A DNA stretch of 64,000 bases from contig NC_014374.1 in NCBI RefSeq assembly GCF_000144915.1, positions 310,001 through 374,000 on the forward strand, in the 5' to 3' direction. The position numbers were made by a program, and so were the translations under genes. The notes below the pieces were generated by a model that saw only the letters and a program-made list of their open reading frames with translations, was not told the origin of the DNA and searched no databases. This document shows positions 50,367-61,852 of this stretch, in pieces (positions within the stretch are counted from its first letter, which is position 1; each line of letters begins with the position of its first letter). This stretch comes from Acidilobus saccharovorans 345-15. Lineage in GTDB: Archaea > Thermoproteota > Thermoprotei_A > Sulfolobales > Acidilobaceae.

Positions 50367-50451
50367 GCGGGGGTGCCCGAGCCTGGCCAAAGGGGACGGG
50401 CTTAGAACCCGTTGGCGTAGGCCTGCGTGGGTTCGAAGCCCACCCCCCGCA
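50367..50451 (+). tRNA. tRNA-Leu(UAG)
   Basis: Complete type II tRNA. Acceptor GCGGGGG/CCCCCGC, anticodon stem ACGGG/CCCGT around loop CTTAGAA with anticodon TAG (50403-50405), a long variable arm, and T-loop TTCGAAG. CCA (50452-50454) follows the discriminator A, so the tail is encoded. No intron. A TTTTAAAC element about 29 bases upstream can be its promoter. Confidence 0.96.
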
Positions 50452-58973: not shown

Positions 58974-59075
58974 AGCCGCCGGCGGGACTTGAACCCGCGA
59001 CCACCGGCTCTCTCGACCTCGGCCTTGGCCAGAGCCCATACGAGGCCGGCGCTCTACCGGCTGAGCTACGGCGGC
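58974..59075 (-). tRNA. tRNA-Thr(CGU) with a 29-base intron
   Basis: Acceptor GCCGCCG/CGGCGGC, D stem GCTC/GAGC, anticodon stem CCGGC/GCCGG, anticodon CGT (59040-59042), T loop TTCAAGT, discriminator T and encoded CCA (58971-58973). The intron occupies 59010-59038, directly after position 37, the canonical archaeal site; it can fold for splicing-endonuclease cleavage. A CATTAATAACG promoter element lies about 30 bases upstream on the minus strand. Discriminator U is usual for archaeal tRNA-Thr. Confidence 0.94.
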
Positions 59076-59250: not shown

Positions 59251-60474
59251 GTGGCAAGTAAATTCTCAAGCGGAGTGAAGTCCCTGAGGCCGTCCGAGAT
59301 AAGAGAAATTCTGGCACTGACGGAGAACAAGAAAGTGCTGAGCCTTGCCGGAGGGCTGCCGGGCCCTGAGGTCTTTCCGAAGGAAGAGCTCGCTGCCATA
59401 GCGTCAAGGGTCATAGAGGAGCTCGGGGACAGCGCCCTTCAATACTCACCCACCCTGGGCGTTATGCCGTTCAGGGAGGCCGTTGCAGACTTCGTGAGAG
59501 GCAAGGGCGTCAAAGTTACTGACAACGACAGGGTTGCTGTGACAACGGGAAGCCAGGAGGCGATATACCTGCTTGCAATGACGCTGATAAACCCAGGCGA
59601 TGGCATCATAGTTGAGAGCCCCACTTACCTGGCGGCGCTCAACGTGTTCAGATACTACGGGGCCAACTTCATATCTATACCGCTAGACGAGAACGGCATG
59701 CGGACGGACCTGCTCGAGGACAGCATCAAGAAGGCTAAGGAGAAGGGCATTAACGTCAAGATGATATACACTGTAGCCACGTGCCACAACCCAACAGGCG
59801 TCATAATGAGCGACGACAGGAGAAAGGAGCTGATGGAAATCGCCAGCAAGTACGACCTGCTGGTAATAGAGGACGACCCCTACAGCTTCTTCGTGTTTGA
59901 CGATGACGTGAATTTCACGCACCTTAAGACTATGGATGACGAGGGCCGCGTGATATATCTTGGCACATTCAGCAAAATCCTGGCTCCAGGGCTGAGGCTT
60001 GGGTACATGATAGCCGACAGGCAGCTCGTCAGGGCGGTCGAGCTGGCGAAACAGATGGTCGACCTTCACTCGTCCACACTTTCCCAGTACATAGCACTCT
60101 ACGCAATAAAGGAGGGCGTGGTTGACAGGACTATAGAGAAGGCCAGAAAGTCATACAGGGAGAAGAGGGACGTGATGATAGAGGCCCTGGAGGAGTACAT
60201 GCCAGACGGCAGCCACTGGTTCAGGCCAAGGGGAGGGCTCTTCGCCTTCATATACCTGCCAGAGGGCGTTGACACATCAGACATGTTACAGATGGCCATA
60301 GACAGGGGCGTCGCATACGTGCCAGGCAGGAGCTTCTTCAGCGACGGCAGTGGCGCGAATGCAATGAGGATAAACTTCAGCTACCTGCCGCCTGACAAGC
60401 TGAGGGAGGGCATAAGGATCATAGCCAACACAGCTGTAGACTACCTAAAGGCTAAGGGCAAGGTTGCCTCCTGA
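59251..60474 (+). CDS. Class I aminotransferase (aminoadipate/aromatic type, MocR-like subgroup)
   Basis: A 407-residue fold-type I aminotransferase. VLSLAGGLPGPEVFPKEEL near the start, LQYSPTLGVMPFREAVADF, TTGSQEAIYLLAMTLINPGD, CHNPTGVIMSDDRR, IEDDPYSFF and the PLP lysine in GTFSKILAPGLRLGY are those of the subgroup containing LysN, archaeal aromatic aminotransferases and 2-aminoadipate transaminase. Substrate is not certain; a role in lysine or aromatic amino acid metabolism is likely. I used the GTG at 59251, about 29 bases from TTTTAACA; the TTG at 59242 in frame is closer to the TATA box than usual. Monocistronic; about 300 bases follow before the next gene. Confidence 0.9.
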   Translation: MASKFSSGVKSLRPSEIREILALTENKKVLSLAGGLPGPEVFPKEELAAIASRVIEELGDSALQYSPTLGVMPFREAVADFVRGKGVKVTDNDRVAVTTGSQEAIYLLAMTLINPGDGIIVESPTYLAALNVFRYYGANFISIPLDENGMRTDLLEDSIKKAKEKGINVKMIYTVATCHNPTGVIMSDDRRKELMEIASKYDLLVIEDDPYSFFVFDDDVNFTHLKTMDDEGRVIYLGTFSKILAPGLRLGYMIADRQLVRAVELAKQMVDLHSSTLSQYIALYAIKEGVVDRTIEKARKSYREKRDVMIEALEEYMPDGSHWFRPRGGLFAFIYLPEGVDTSDMLQMAIDRGVAYVPGRSFFSDGSGANAMRINFSYLPPDKLREGIRIIANTAVDYLKAKGKVAS

Positions 60475-60684
60475 GGGCTCGGAGCTCCAGACCTTCATCA
60501 TTTTTCATCAGGTAAACCATCTCCTCACGGCCCTAGCACACTAAGTTTAGGGAAAGGCTCTTATCTTCAACGGGGCCTTCAAGTAATAGACTCTTCCGCG
60601 GATGCTATCTCCGGCCACTAACAGCTTGCGGCCTAGCCTTTGAACGCAACAATTTTATTATTATAGTGCGCCCTAGGTATACCC
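60475..60684. other. Intergenic stretch after the aminotransferase
   Basis: I see no gene in the first 175 bases: there is a GGAGCTCC palindrome near 60482 and a CTGATGA-like motif on the minus strand near 60505, not enough to call anything. At the right end AATTTTATTATTATAG (60651-60666) is a promoter whose transcription start would be near 60686, where the guide-RNA candidate begins. Confidence 0.5.
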
Positions 60685-60745
60685 TGGCGTGAAGAGGCTC
60701 GAAAGGGCTGACATCAGGATGAAGAGCCCGCGCAGGGCTGACCGT
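60685..60745 (+). ncRNA. Candidate C/D box guide RNA (2'-O-methylation sRNA)
   Basis: The layout is that of an archaeal C/D sRNA: box C GTGAAGA (60689-60695), a 12-base guide GGCTCGAAAGGG, box D' CTGA (60708-60711), a 7-base spacer, box C' ATGAAGA (60719-60725), a second 12-base guide GCCCGCGCAGGG and box D CTGA (60738-60741). Both C boxes are RUGAAGA, one change from RUGAUGA; the A would pair with the U of CUGA, so the kink-turn should form. A TATA-like element at 60651-60666 places the start right at box C. The terminal stem is weak. Targets would be methylated opposite the fifth base upstream of D or D'. Confidence 0.6.
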
Positions 60746-60778
60746 AAAGTCTGCGGGTGAACTTGAGTAGAGGGTGCA

Positions 60779-61747
60779 GTGAGCGTGAAGTTCCTGGTAA
60801 CTGGGGGTGCGGGCTTCATAGGCTCTCACCTGGTGGAGCTGCTGATAGAGGAAGGTCACGACGTCACGGTTGTTGATAACCTGAGCACCGGCAGGCTCGA
60901 GTTCCTCAAGGACGTGATGGGAAGCCCCCATCTCAGGTTCATTAGGGCCGACCTGACGAGCCCTGAGGTGGCCAGGGAGGTCACCAAGGGCGCTGACGCG
61001 GTGGTGCACCTGGCAGCTAACCCGGAGGTCAGAATAGGGTCGCAGAGCCCCGAGTCCATATATCTTCAGAACGTCCAAATGACCTATAACGTGCTTGAGG
61101 GCATGAGGGCTAACGGCGTGAAGGCCATAGCGTTTGCCTCGTCCTCCACGGTCTACGGGGAGGCAAGGGTTATACCTACGCCTGAGGACTACGGCCCCTG
61201 CTACCCGATAAGCGTGTACGGAGGCTCCAAGCTGGCCTCAGAGGGGCTGATAAGTGGCTACGCGTTTACCTTCGACTGGACCGCGGTGTCGTACAGGCTG
61301 GCCAACGTCGTGGGCCCAAGGTCTACCCACGGCGTCATATATGACTTCATAAACAAGCTCAGGAGGGACCCCACGCGGCTTGAGGTCCTGGGCGACGGCA
61401 GCCAGAGCAAGAGCTACGTGCACGTCAGCGACACGGTGAGGGCCATGTACCAGCTCTTCATGAAGGCCCTGGAGAAGGGGGTAAGGTATGAGGCCTTTAA
61501 CATAGGCACCCCGGACAGGATATCCGTGCTTGAGATAGCTAAAATAGTGGCTGAGACCATGGGCCTAAGCCCACAGATATACACTACCGGAGGGGTCGAC
61601 GGGGGAAGAGGGTGGAGGGGCGATGTAAAGGTAATGCAGCTGTCCATAGAGAAAGCCGTAAGCTGGGGCTGGTCCCCCCAGGTGGGGAGCAGCAGGGACG
61701 TCGTAAGGAGGGCGGTTACGGAGGTCCTGAGCGGGTTCAAAGCTTAA
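60779..61747 (+). CDS. NAD-dependent sugar epimerase/dehydratase (GalE-like)
   Basis: A 322-residue extended short-chain dehydrogenase. NAD-binding GGAGFIGSHLVELL at the start, VVDNLSTGRLEFL, HLAANPEVR, ASSSTVYGEA and the catalytic YGGSK (Tyr-xxx-Lys) define UDP-glucose 4-epimerase-like enzymes. GTPDRISVLEIA and the C-terminal WSPQVGSSRDVVRRAV fit. It may interconvert UDP-glucose and UDP-galactose for glycosylation; the substrate is inferred. Start is GTG at 60779 or GTG at 60785, the latter at ideal distance from GAGGGTG (60771-60777). tRNA-Glu follows 30 bases after the stop. Confidence 0.88.
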   Translation: MSVKFLVTGGAGFIGSHLVELLIEEGHDVTVVDNLSTGRLEFLKDVMGSPHLRFIRADLTSPEVAREVTKGADAVVHLAANPEVRIGSQSPESIYLQNVQMTYNVLEGMRANGVKAIAFASSSTVYGEARVIPTPEDYGPCYPISVYGGSKLASEGLISGYAFTFDWTAVSYRLANVVGPRSTHGVIYDFINKLRRDPTRLEVLGDGSQSKSYVHVSDTVRAMYQLFMKALEKGVRYEAFNIGTPDRISVLEIAKIVAETMGLSPQIYTTGGVDGGRGWRGDVKVMQLSIEKAVSWGWSPQVGSSRDVVRRAVTEVLSGFKA

Positions 61748-61776: not shown

Positions 61777-61851
61777 GCCGCGGTAGTATAGTCCGGCCCA
61801 GTATGCGGGCCTTTCGAGCCCGTGACCCGGGTTCAAATCCCGGCCGCGGCA
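61777..61851 (+). tRNA. tRNA-Glu(UUC)
   Basis: GCCGCGG acceptor closes with CCGCGGC, D arm GTAT/GTAT, anticodon arm CGGGC-CTTTCGA-GCCCG with anticodon TTC, T arm with TTCAAAT loop, discriminator A. CCA is not encoded (the next bases are CT). GCTTAATTTTCC about 30 bases upstream can be the promoter. The sequence beyond the 3' end changes in character, which makes this tRNA a likely integration site. Confidence 0.96.
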
Positions 61852-61852
61852 C

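Follow-up and report, generated by a model that had tools for sequence, protein, structure and literature searches.

The closest described counterparts of the RNA discussed here are the archaeal C/D box sRNAs, including the sR families of Sulfolobus, Pyrococcus and Pyrobaculum and the Rfam entries sR30, sR14 and snoPyro_CD. In Pyrobaculum, sRNAs that target tRNAs have one guide for the tRNA and another without a target (reviewed in PMC7994747), and in Pyrococcus, predictions assign C/D sRNAs to the wobble nucleotides of tRNAs and to tRNA-Leu G47 (PMC7668247, PMC7994747). The only connection between a C/D guide and a tRNA intron that we found in the literature searched is the intron-encoded tRNA-Trp case, in which the guide of the pre-tRNA-Trp intron C/D RNA (sR50; Haloferax, Pyrococcus) lies inside the intron (PMC4090602). 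Targeting of tRNAs by C/D sRNAs is known, and G47 has been predicted as a site in tRNA-Leu.

A locus in the genome of Acidilobus saccharovorans, a single contig of 1,496,453 bases, resembles these sRNAs in its C, D′, C′ and D boxes, its two guides of ~12 nt, its length of ~60 nt, its N+5 geometry and its sub-threshold Rfam matches; coordinates below are those of the window, the whole 64,000-nucleotide stretch of this genome that was analysed, unless stated otherwise. The kinds of site are those predicted in Pyrococcus, a tRNA wobble nucleotide and tRNA-Leu G47, but here a single RNA would serve tRNA-Glu(UUC) and several tRNA-Leu isoacceptors, both in Acidilobus and in the order; and unlike the tRNA-targeting sRNAs of Pyrobaculum (PMC7994747), it has two guides that both match tRNAs. 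As with sR50, a C/D guide RNP would be linked to a tRNA intron, but the tRNA-Thr intron concerned has its complement in a guide encoded elsewhere, whereas the sR50 guide is part of its intron. Pairing of a C/D guide with a tRNA intron in trans is unreported in the literature searched, a search that was incomplete and lacked the main Pyrobaculum survey (Lui et al. 2018), and the interaction is possibly new. We consider it likely that the locus specifies a dual-guide sRNA for methylation of tRNA-Glu U34 and tRNA-Leu G47, with additional, apparently selected complementarity to the intron.

The sRNA locus and its conservation

The sRNA sits on the + strand in the gap between a class I/II aminotransferase gene that ends at 60474 upstream and an NAD-dependent epimerase gene that starts at 60779 downstream. 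Its approximate extent, 60686–60745, is placed from the boxes, conservation being limited to 60690–60743. The first-pass annotation had described two RTGAAGA and two CTGA boxes in order with 12-nt guides, and all of these are present at 60689–60741: box C (GTGAAGA, 60689–60695), the D′ guide (GGCTCGAAAGGG, 12 nt, 60696–60707), box D′ (CTGA, 60708–60711), a spacer CATCAGG between D′ and C′ (60712–60718), box C′ (ATGAAGA, 60719–60725), the D guide (GCCCGCGCAGGG, 12 nt, 60726–60737) and box D (CTGA, 60738–60741). Boxes D′, C′ and D also occur in relatives, as does an RTGANGA-like counterpart of box C. The architecture RTGANGA, 10–14 nt, CTGA, 3–12 nt, RTGANGA, 10–14 nt, CTGA has one match in the 64-kb window (both strands) and none in 300 first-order Markov shuffles.

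A T/A-rich, TATA-like element (TTTTATTATTATA, 60653–60665, + strand) is a putative promoter, with a spacing to box C that fits an archaeal promoter, and the start predicted near box C by the first-pass annotation agrees with one ~25 nt downstream of it. The same annotation's suggestion that the RNA may have escaped motif scanners is borne out for Rfam, which misses it. The terminal stem for the C/D kink-turn is weak here, although the flanks seem, by eye, more complementary in some relatives. The Rfam scores are 15.1 bits for sR30 and 11.8 bits for sR14, against a gathering threshold of 38, and assignment to either family was rejected as resting on sub-threshold matches. An intron-encoded guide of the tRNA-Trp type was rejected as well, since the sRNA at 60689–60741 is intergenic and the tRNA-Thr intron is ~17 nt long.

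Comparison of 60640–60778 with 48 family genomes by BLAST gave matches at E≤1 in 41 of them, and the strong matches are confined to the sRNA (query 51–104, window 60690–60743), not its flanks. Both guides occur together in at least 70 of 214 genomes of the order, a lower bound because the pattern used (GGCTCGAAAGG, 13–43 nt, CCYGCGCAGG) is exact; the reversed control pattern occurs in none. The same two-guide pattern found 63 stretches in ~85,000 species, the archaeal ones being titled Acidilobaceae, Aeropyrum, Hestiella, Tiamatella, Staphylothermus, Thermogladius, Pyrolobus, Pyrodictiaceae, Sulfolobales and similar. By a simple test, all four boxes accompany 33 of 44 archaeal matches examined versus 0 of 18 others, and the bacterial and other matches were set aside as chance. 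With ordered C, D′, C′ and D boxes, guides of 10–12 nt and conservation in relatives, comparative sequence evidence confirms the interval as a genuine C/D box guide RNA; the C/D reading first proposed, for which a search in related genomes had been suggested, gains support from the conservation of the boxes and the two guides throughout the order. We also note that a Staphylothermus-like genome (G065) carries the sRNA in duplicate, on contigs C8 and C9, which may be a real duplication or an assembly artefact.

The setting of the sRNA is less constant. In the congener G003, a methyltransferase gene runs with its 3′ end into the first half of the sRNA and has the TGA of box D′ as its stop codon; because of this overlap, the promoter cannot be called a conserved feature, while an own promoter is plausible in the A. 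saccharovorans genome. The congener gene (L005:852-1523) encodes a SAM-dependent methyltransferase. The same gene is absent from the window, where the TATA-like stretch precedes the sRNA instead, and it seems that the host gene was lost and the sRNA retained. In Sulfolobaceae-like genomes, box C seems to contain the end of an upstream reading frame. The order tRNA-Thr(CGU), sRNA, tRNA-Glu is kept within the genus; the tRNA-Thr(CGU) gene (58974–59075, − strand), 1.6 kb from the sRNA, has an intron at the canonical position and is detected by Rfam and missed by ARAGORN.

Candidate targets in tRNA-Glu and tRNA-Leu

The guides were compared with 45 tRNA genes of the genome. The D′ guide pairs at 11 of its 12 positions, all 11 in contiguous Watson-Crick pairs, with the anticodon arm of tRNA-Glu(UUC), the gene for which is close by (61777–61852, + strand; target 61809–61820). 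A guide A faces U34 at the N+5 position (61813), and it is exactly at N+5 that tRNA-Glu(CUC) mismatches the guide. The D′ guide is conserved in the order, and the tRNA-Glu anticodon-arm pattern is found with no more than one mismatch in 184 of 214 genomes of the order, some of these matches being CUC or GUC isoforms. The D guide pairs through positions 2–11 (nine Watson-Crick pairs and one G-U) with the junction of the variable arm and T-stem in tRNA-Leu, as for example in tRNA-Leu(UAG) (50367–50451, + strand; target 50421–50432), where N+5 falls on G47 in our own numbering (50425). The first-pass annotation had named rRNA and tRNA as possible guide targets, and it is the tRNA part that is borne out, with matches to both guides that include N+5 and reach about nine base pairs or more (11 Watson-Crick pairs in tRNA-Glu, nine plus one G-U in tRNA-Leu); no good rRNA site was found.

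The tRNA-Leu target CCTGCGYGGGTTC is present in 209 of 214 genomes of the order, typically in 4–5 copies each, with a control near zero, and its distribution therefore explains the order-wide conservation of the D guide. Genomes of genus g73 lack the exact target, yet one of them (G200) has an exact sRNA. Five copies are present in A. saccharovorans, four of them within the tRNA-Leu genes found. The fifth, a tRNA-Leu-like T-arm motif at G000:C1:1220602-1220614, lies outside the tRNAs found by RF00005 and is perhaps part of a tRNA-Leu(CAA) with an unusual intron.

We propose that the interval is expressed as a dual-guide archaeal C/D box sRNA that would assemble with L7Ae, Nop5 and fibrillarin, its D′ guide directing 2′-O-methylation of U34 in tRNA-Glu(UUC) and its D guide that of G47 in tRNA-Leu isoacceptors. 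The G47 methylation predicted for Pyrococcus furiosus tRNA-Leu(UAA) was undetected in the tRNAs analysed by Wolff et al. (PMC7668247), which counts against the proposed G47 target.

Complementarity between the D guide and a tRNA-Thr intron

All 12 positions of the D guide are complementary to an intron of about 17 nt in the D-arm of pre-tRNA-Thr(UGU). The gene (L054; G000:C1:199859-199948, guide complement at 199882-199893) is outside the window, and its intron contains the only other exact 11-mer match to the D guide in the genome; a perfect match to the tRNA set occurs for a 1.9e-4 fraction of window 12-mers. ARAGORN labels the gene tRNA-Arg(CCG), and deletion of the 17-nt insertion yields tRNA-Thr(UGU), by comparison with L024 and L045; genes of this type may be misannotated across the family. 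We read the insertion as an intron because in genus g3 it folds as a bulge-helix-bulge-like structure.

Introns were surveyed with a gap pattern that is independent of intron sequence. In family f1, every tRNA-Thr(UGU) gene so found has an insertion bearing the core, in the variants CTGCGCGGG, CTGCGTGGG and CTGTGCGGG, and the core is also present in G050 and G100; in most other families the gap pattern revealed no intron at this site. In family f4 the D-arm intron persists in G095, G096 and G097 with loops unrelated to the guide and in G100 with a matching one, and the sRNA is nonetheless present in at least one of the former three, G097. That the tRNA-Thr intron was the ancestral target of the D guide was rejected, since families lacking the intron still conserve the guide and the sRNA is found order-wide in genomes with an intron-free tRNA-Thr(UGU).

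Across the 27 genomes in which both sRNA and intron are known, guide positions 3–11 are paired with the intron in 243 of 243 instances (six G-U pairs, no mismatches), these genomes being related and the counts thus not independent, while positions 1 and 12 are each mismatched in 12 genomes. Two biases enter this comparison and favour pairing: the sRNAs were found through the core pattern or likeness to it, and a regular expression served to locate the intron core. The gap-pattern survey avoids the second of these. The intron varies elsewhere while the core stays paired. As a control, the tRNA-Thr(CGU) introns of the same family, 13 to 35 nt in length, share no word longer than 2 nt, in contrast to the UGU introns with their 9-nt core in three variants. 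Complementarity of the D guide and the intron seems to have been maintained by selection.

It may be, however, that this is an ordinary C/D sRNA for tRNA-Glu and tRNA-Leu only, and that the intron match is a by-product of an inherited T-arm-like hairpin, a reading that we regard as evenly poised. The tRNA-Leu targets are order-wide and the intron is not, the intron segment CGCGGG is identical to part of the T-arm of tRNA-Thr itself, and the intron hairpin constrains part of the core, which forms the stem required for the bulge-helix-bulge. Such constraint does not extend readily to the five-base hairpin loop, which has no known structural reason for staying fixed and in which the only changes are from C to U opposite a guide G, so that G-U pairs are kept. 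Moreover, the loops are unrelated where another family has introns at this site, and the introns of tRNA-Thr(CGU) in these genomes have diverged freely.

Possible roles of intron pairing

If pairing with the intron is selected, the methyl group itself is an unpromising explanation, as it would be placed on an intron that is discarded upon splicing, and the pairing rather than the modification may therefore matter. In the Acidilobus family, the D guide is able to pair with the D-arm intron as well, and we tentatively prefer a scheme in which pre-tRNA-Thr(UGU) is bound by the sRNP while still unspliced, with an effect on how it folds or is spliced. Masking of the intron segment GCGGG, which is able to mispair with the T-stem, would be one example. 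In the minimum-energy fold of the A. saccharovorans precursor, calculated once at 37 °C, the T-stem is misplaced and GCGGG of the intron is paired with CCCGC, and the spliced tRNA-Thr fold keeps its anticodon and T arms; this hints that the sRNP might prevent misfolding of the T-stem by covering the intron, although the precursor of genus g3 folds well unaided. That a trans-encoded C/D sRNP controls or assists pre-tRNA folding or splicing, and that this interaction holds the intron core constant across the genera of one family, is in our view possible but rather doubtful.

Alternatively, the unspliced or excised intron could act as a decoy that titrates the sRNP from tRNA-Leu, with an effect on regulation and not modification. 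The intron duplex is the stronger of the two and the family conserves the core of the intron, but one tRNA precursor would have to compete against about five tRNA-Leu species, and we think this improbable.

Most archaeal C/D sRNAs have targets in ribosomal RNA, but it is likewise quite unlikely that these two guides act there. The rRNA loci had been retrieved as the opposite strand, their reverse complement being read as the RNA, and among sites in the sense orientation there is no good match for either guide. 23S rRNA does contain UCCUGCACGGGG, which forms nine Watson-Crick pairs and one G-U with the D guide around one internal mismatch, and CUCUUUCGGGAG, which forms 10 contiguous pairs with the D′ guide, two of them G-U; however, both are weaker than the tRNA matches. 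Duplex energies for the D guide are −19.1 kcal/mol with the large subunit rRNA, −23.1 with tRNA-Leu and −28.3 with the tRNA-Thr intron, and the C that mismatches the 23S site is retained by the D guide in all exact matches. rRNA targets were rejected, there being no contiguous match equal to those in tRNA. Finally, the notion that the boxes arose by chance in intergenic sequence, for which one might cite the weak terminal stem and the lack of an Rfam match at gathering score, is already refuted by exact conservation over boxes and guides across the order, and its probability is negligible.

The dual-guide reading assigns targets to an order-wide C/D sRNA family that is unmatched at Rfam cut-offs, and it predicts two tRNA methylations that can be tested, in tractable species of Sulfolobus as well. 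To these it adds a tRNA intron with conserved antisense complementarity to a methylation guide. If the proposed role in folding or splicing is correct, one RNA would serve both as methylation guide and as tRNA-processing factor; and if the match is functional, a tRNA intron would have been kept because it interacts with a guide RNP, which is relevant to the question of why introns have persisted in archaeal tRNA genes.
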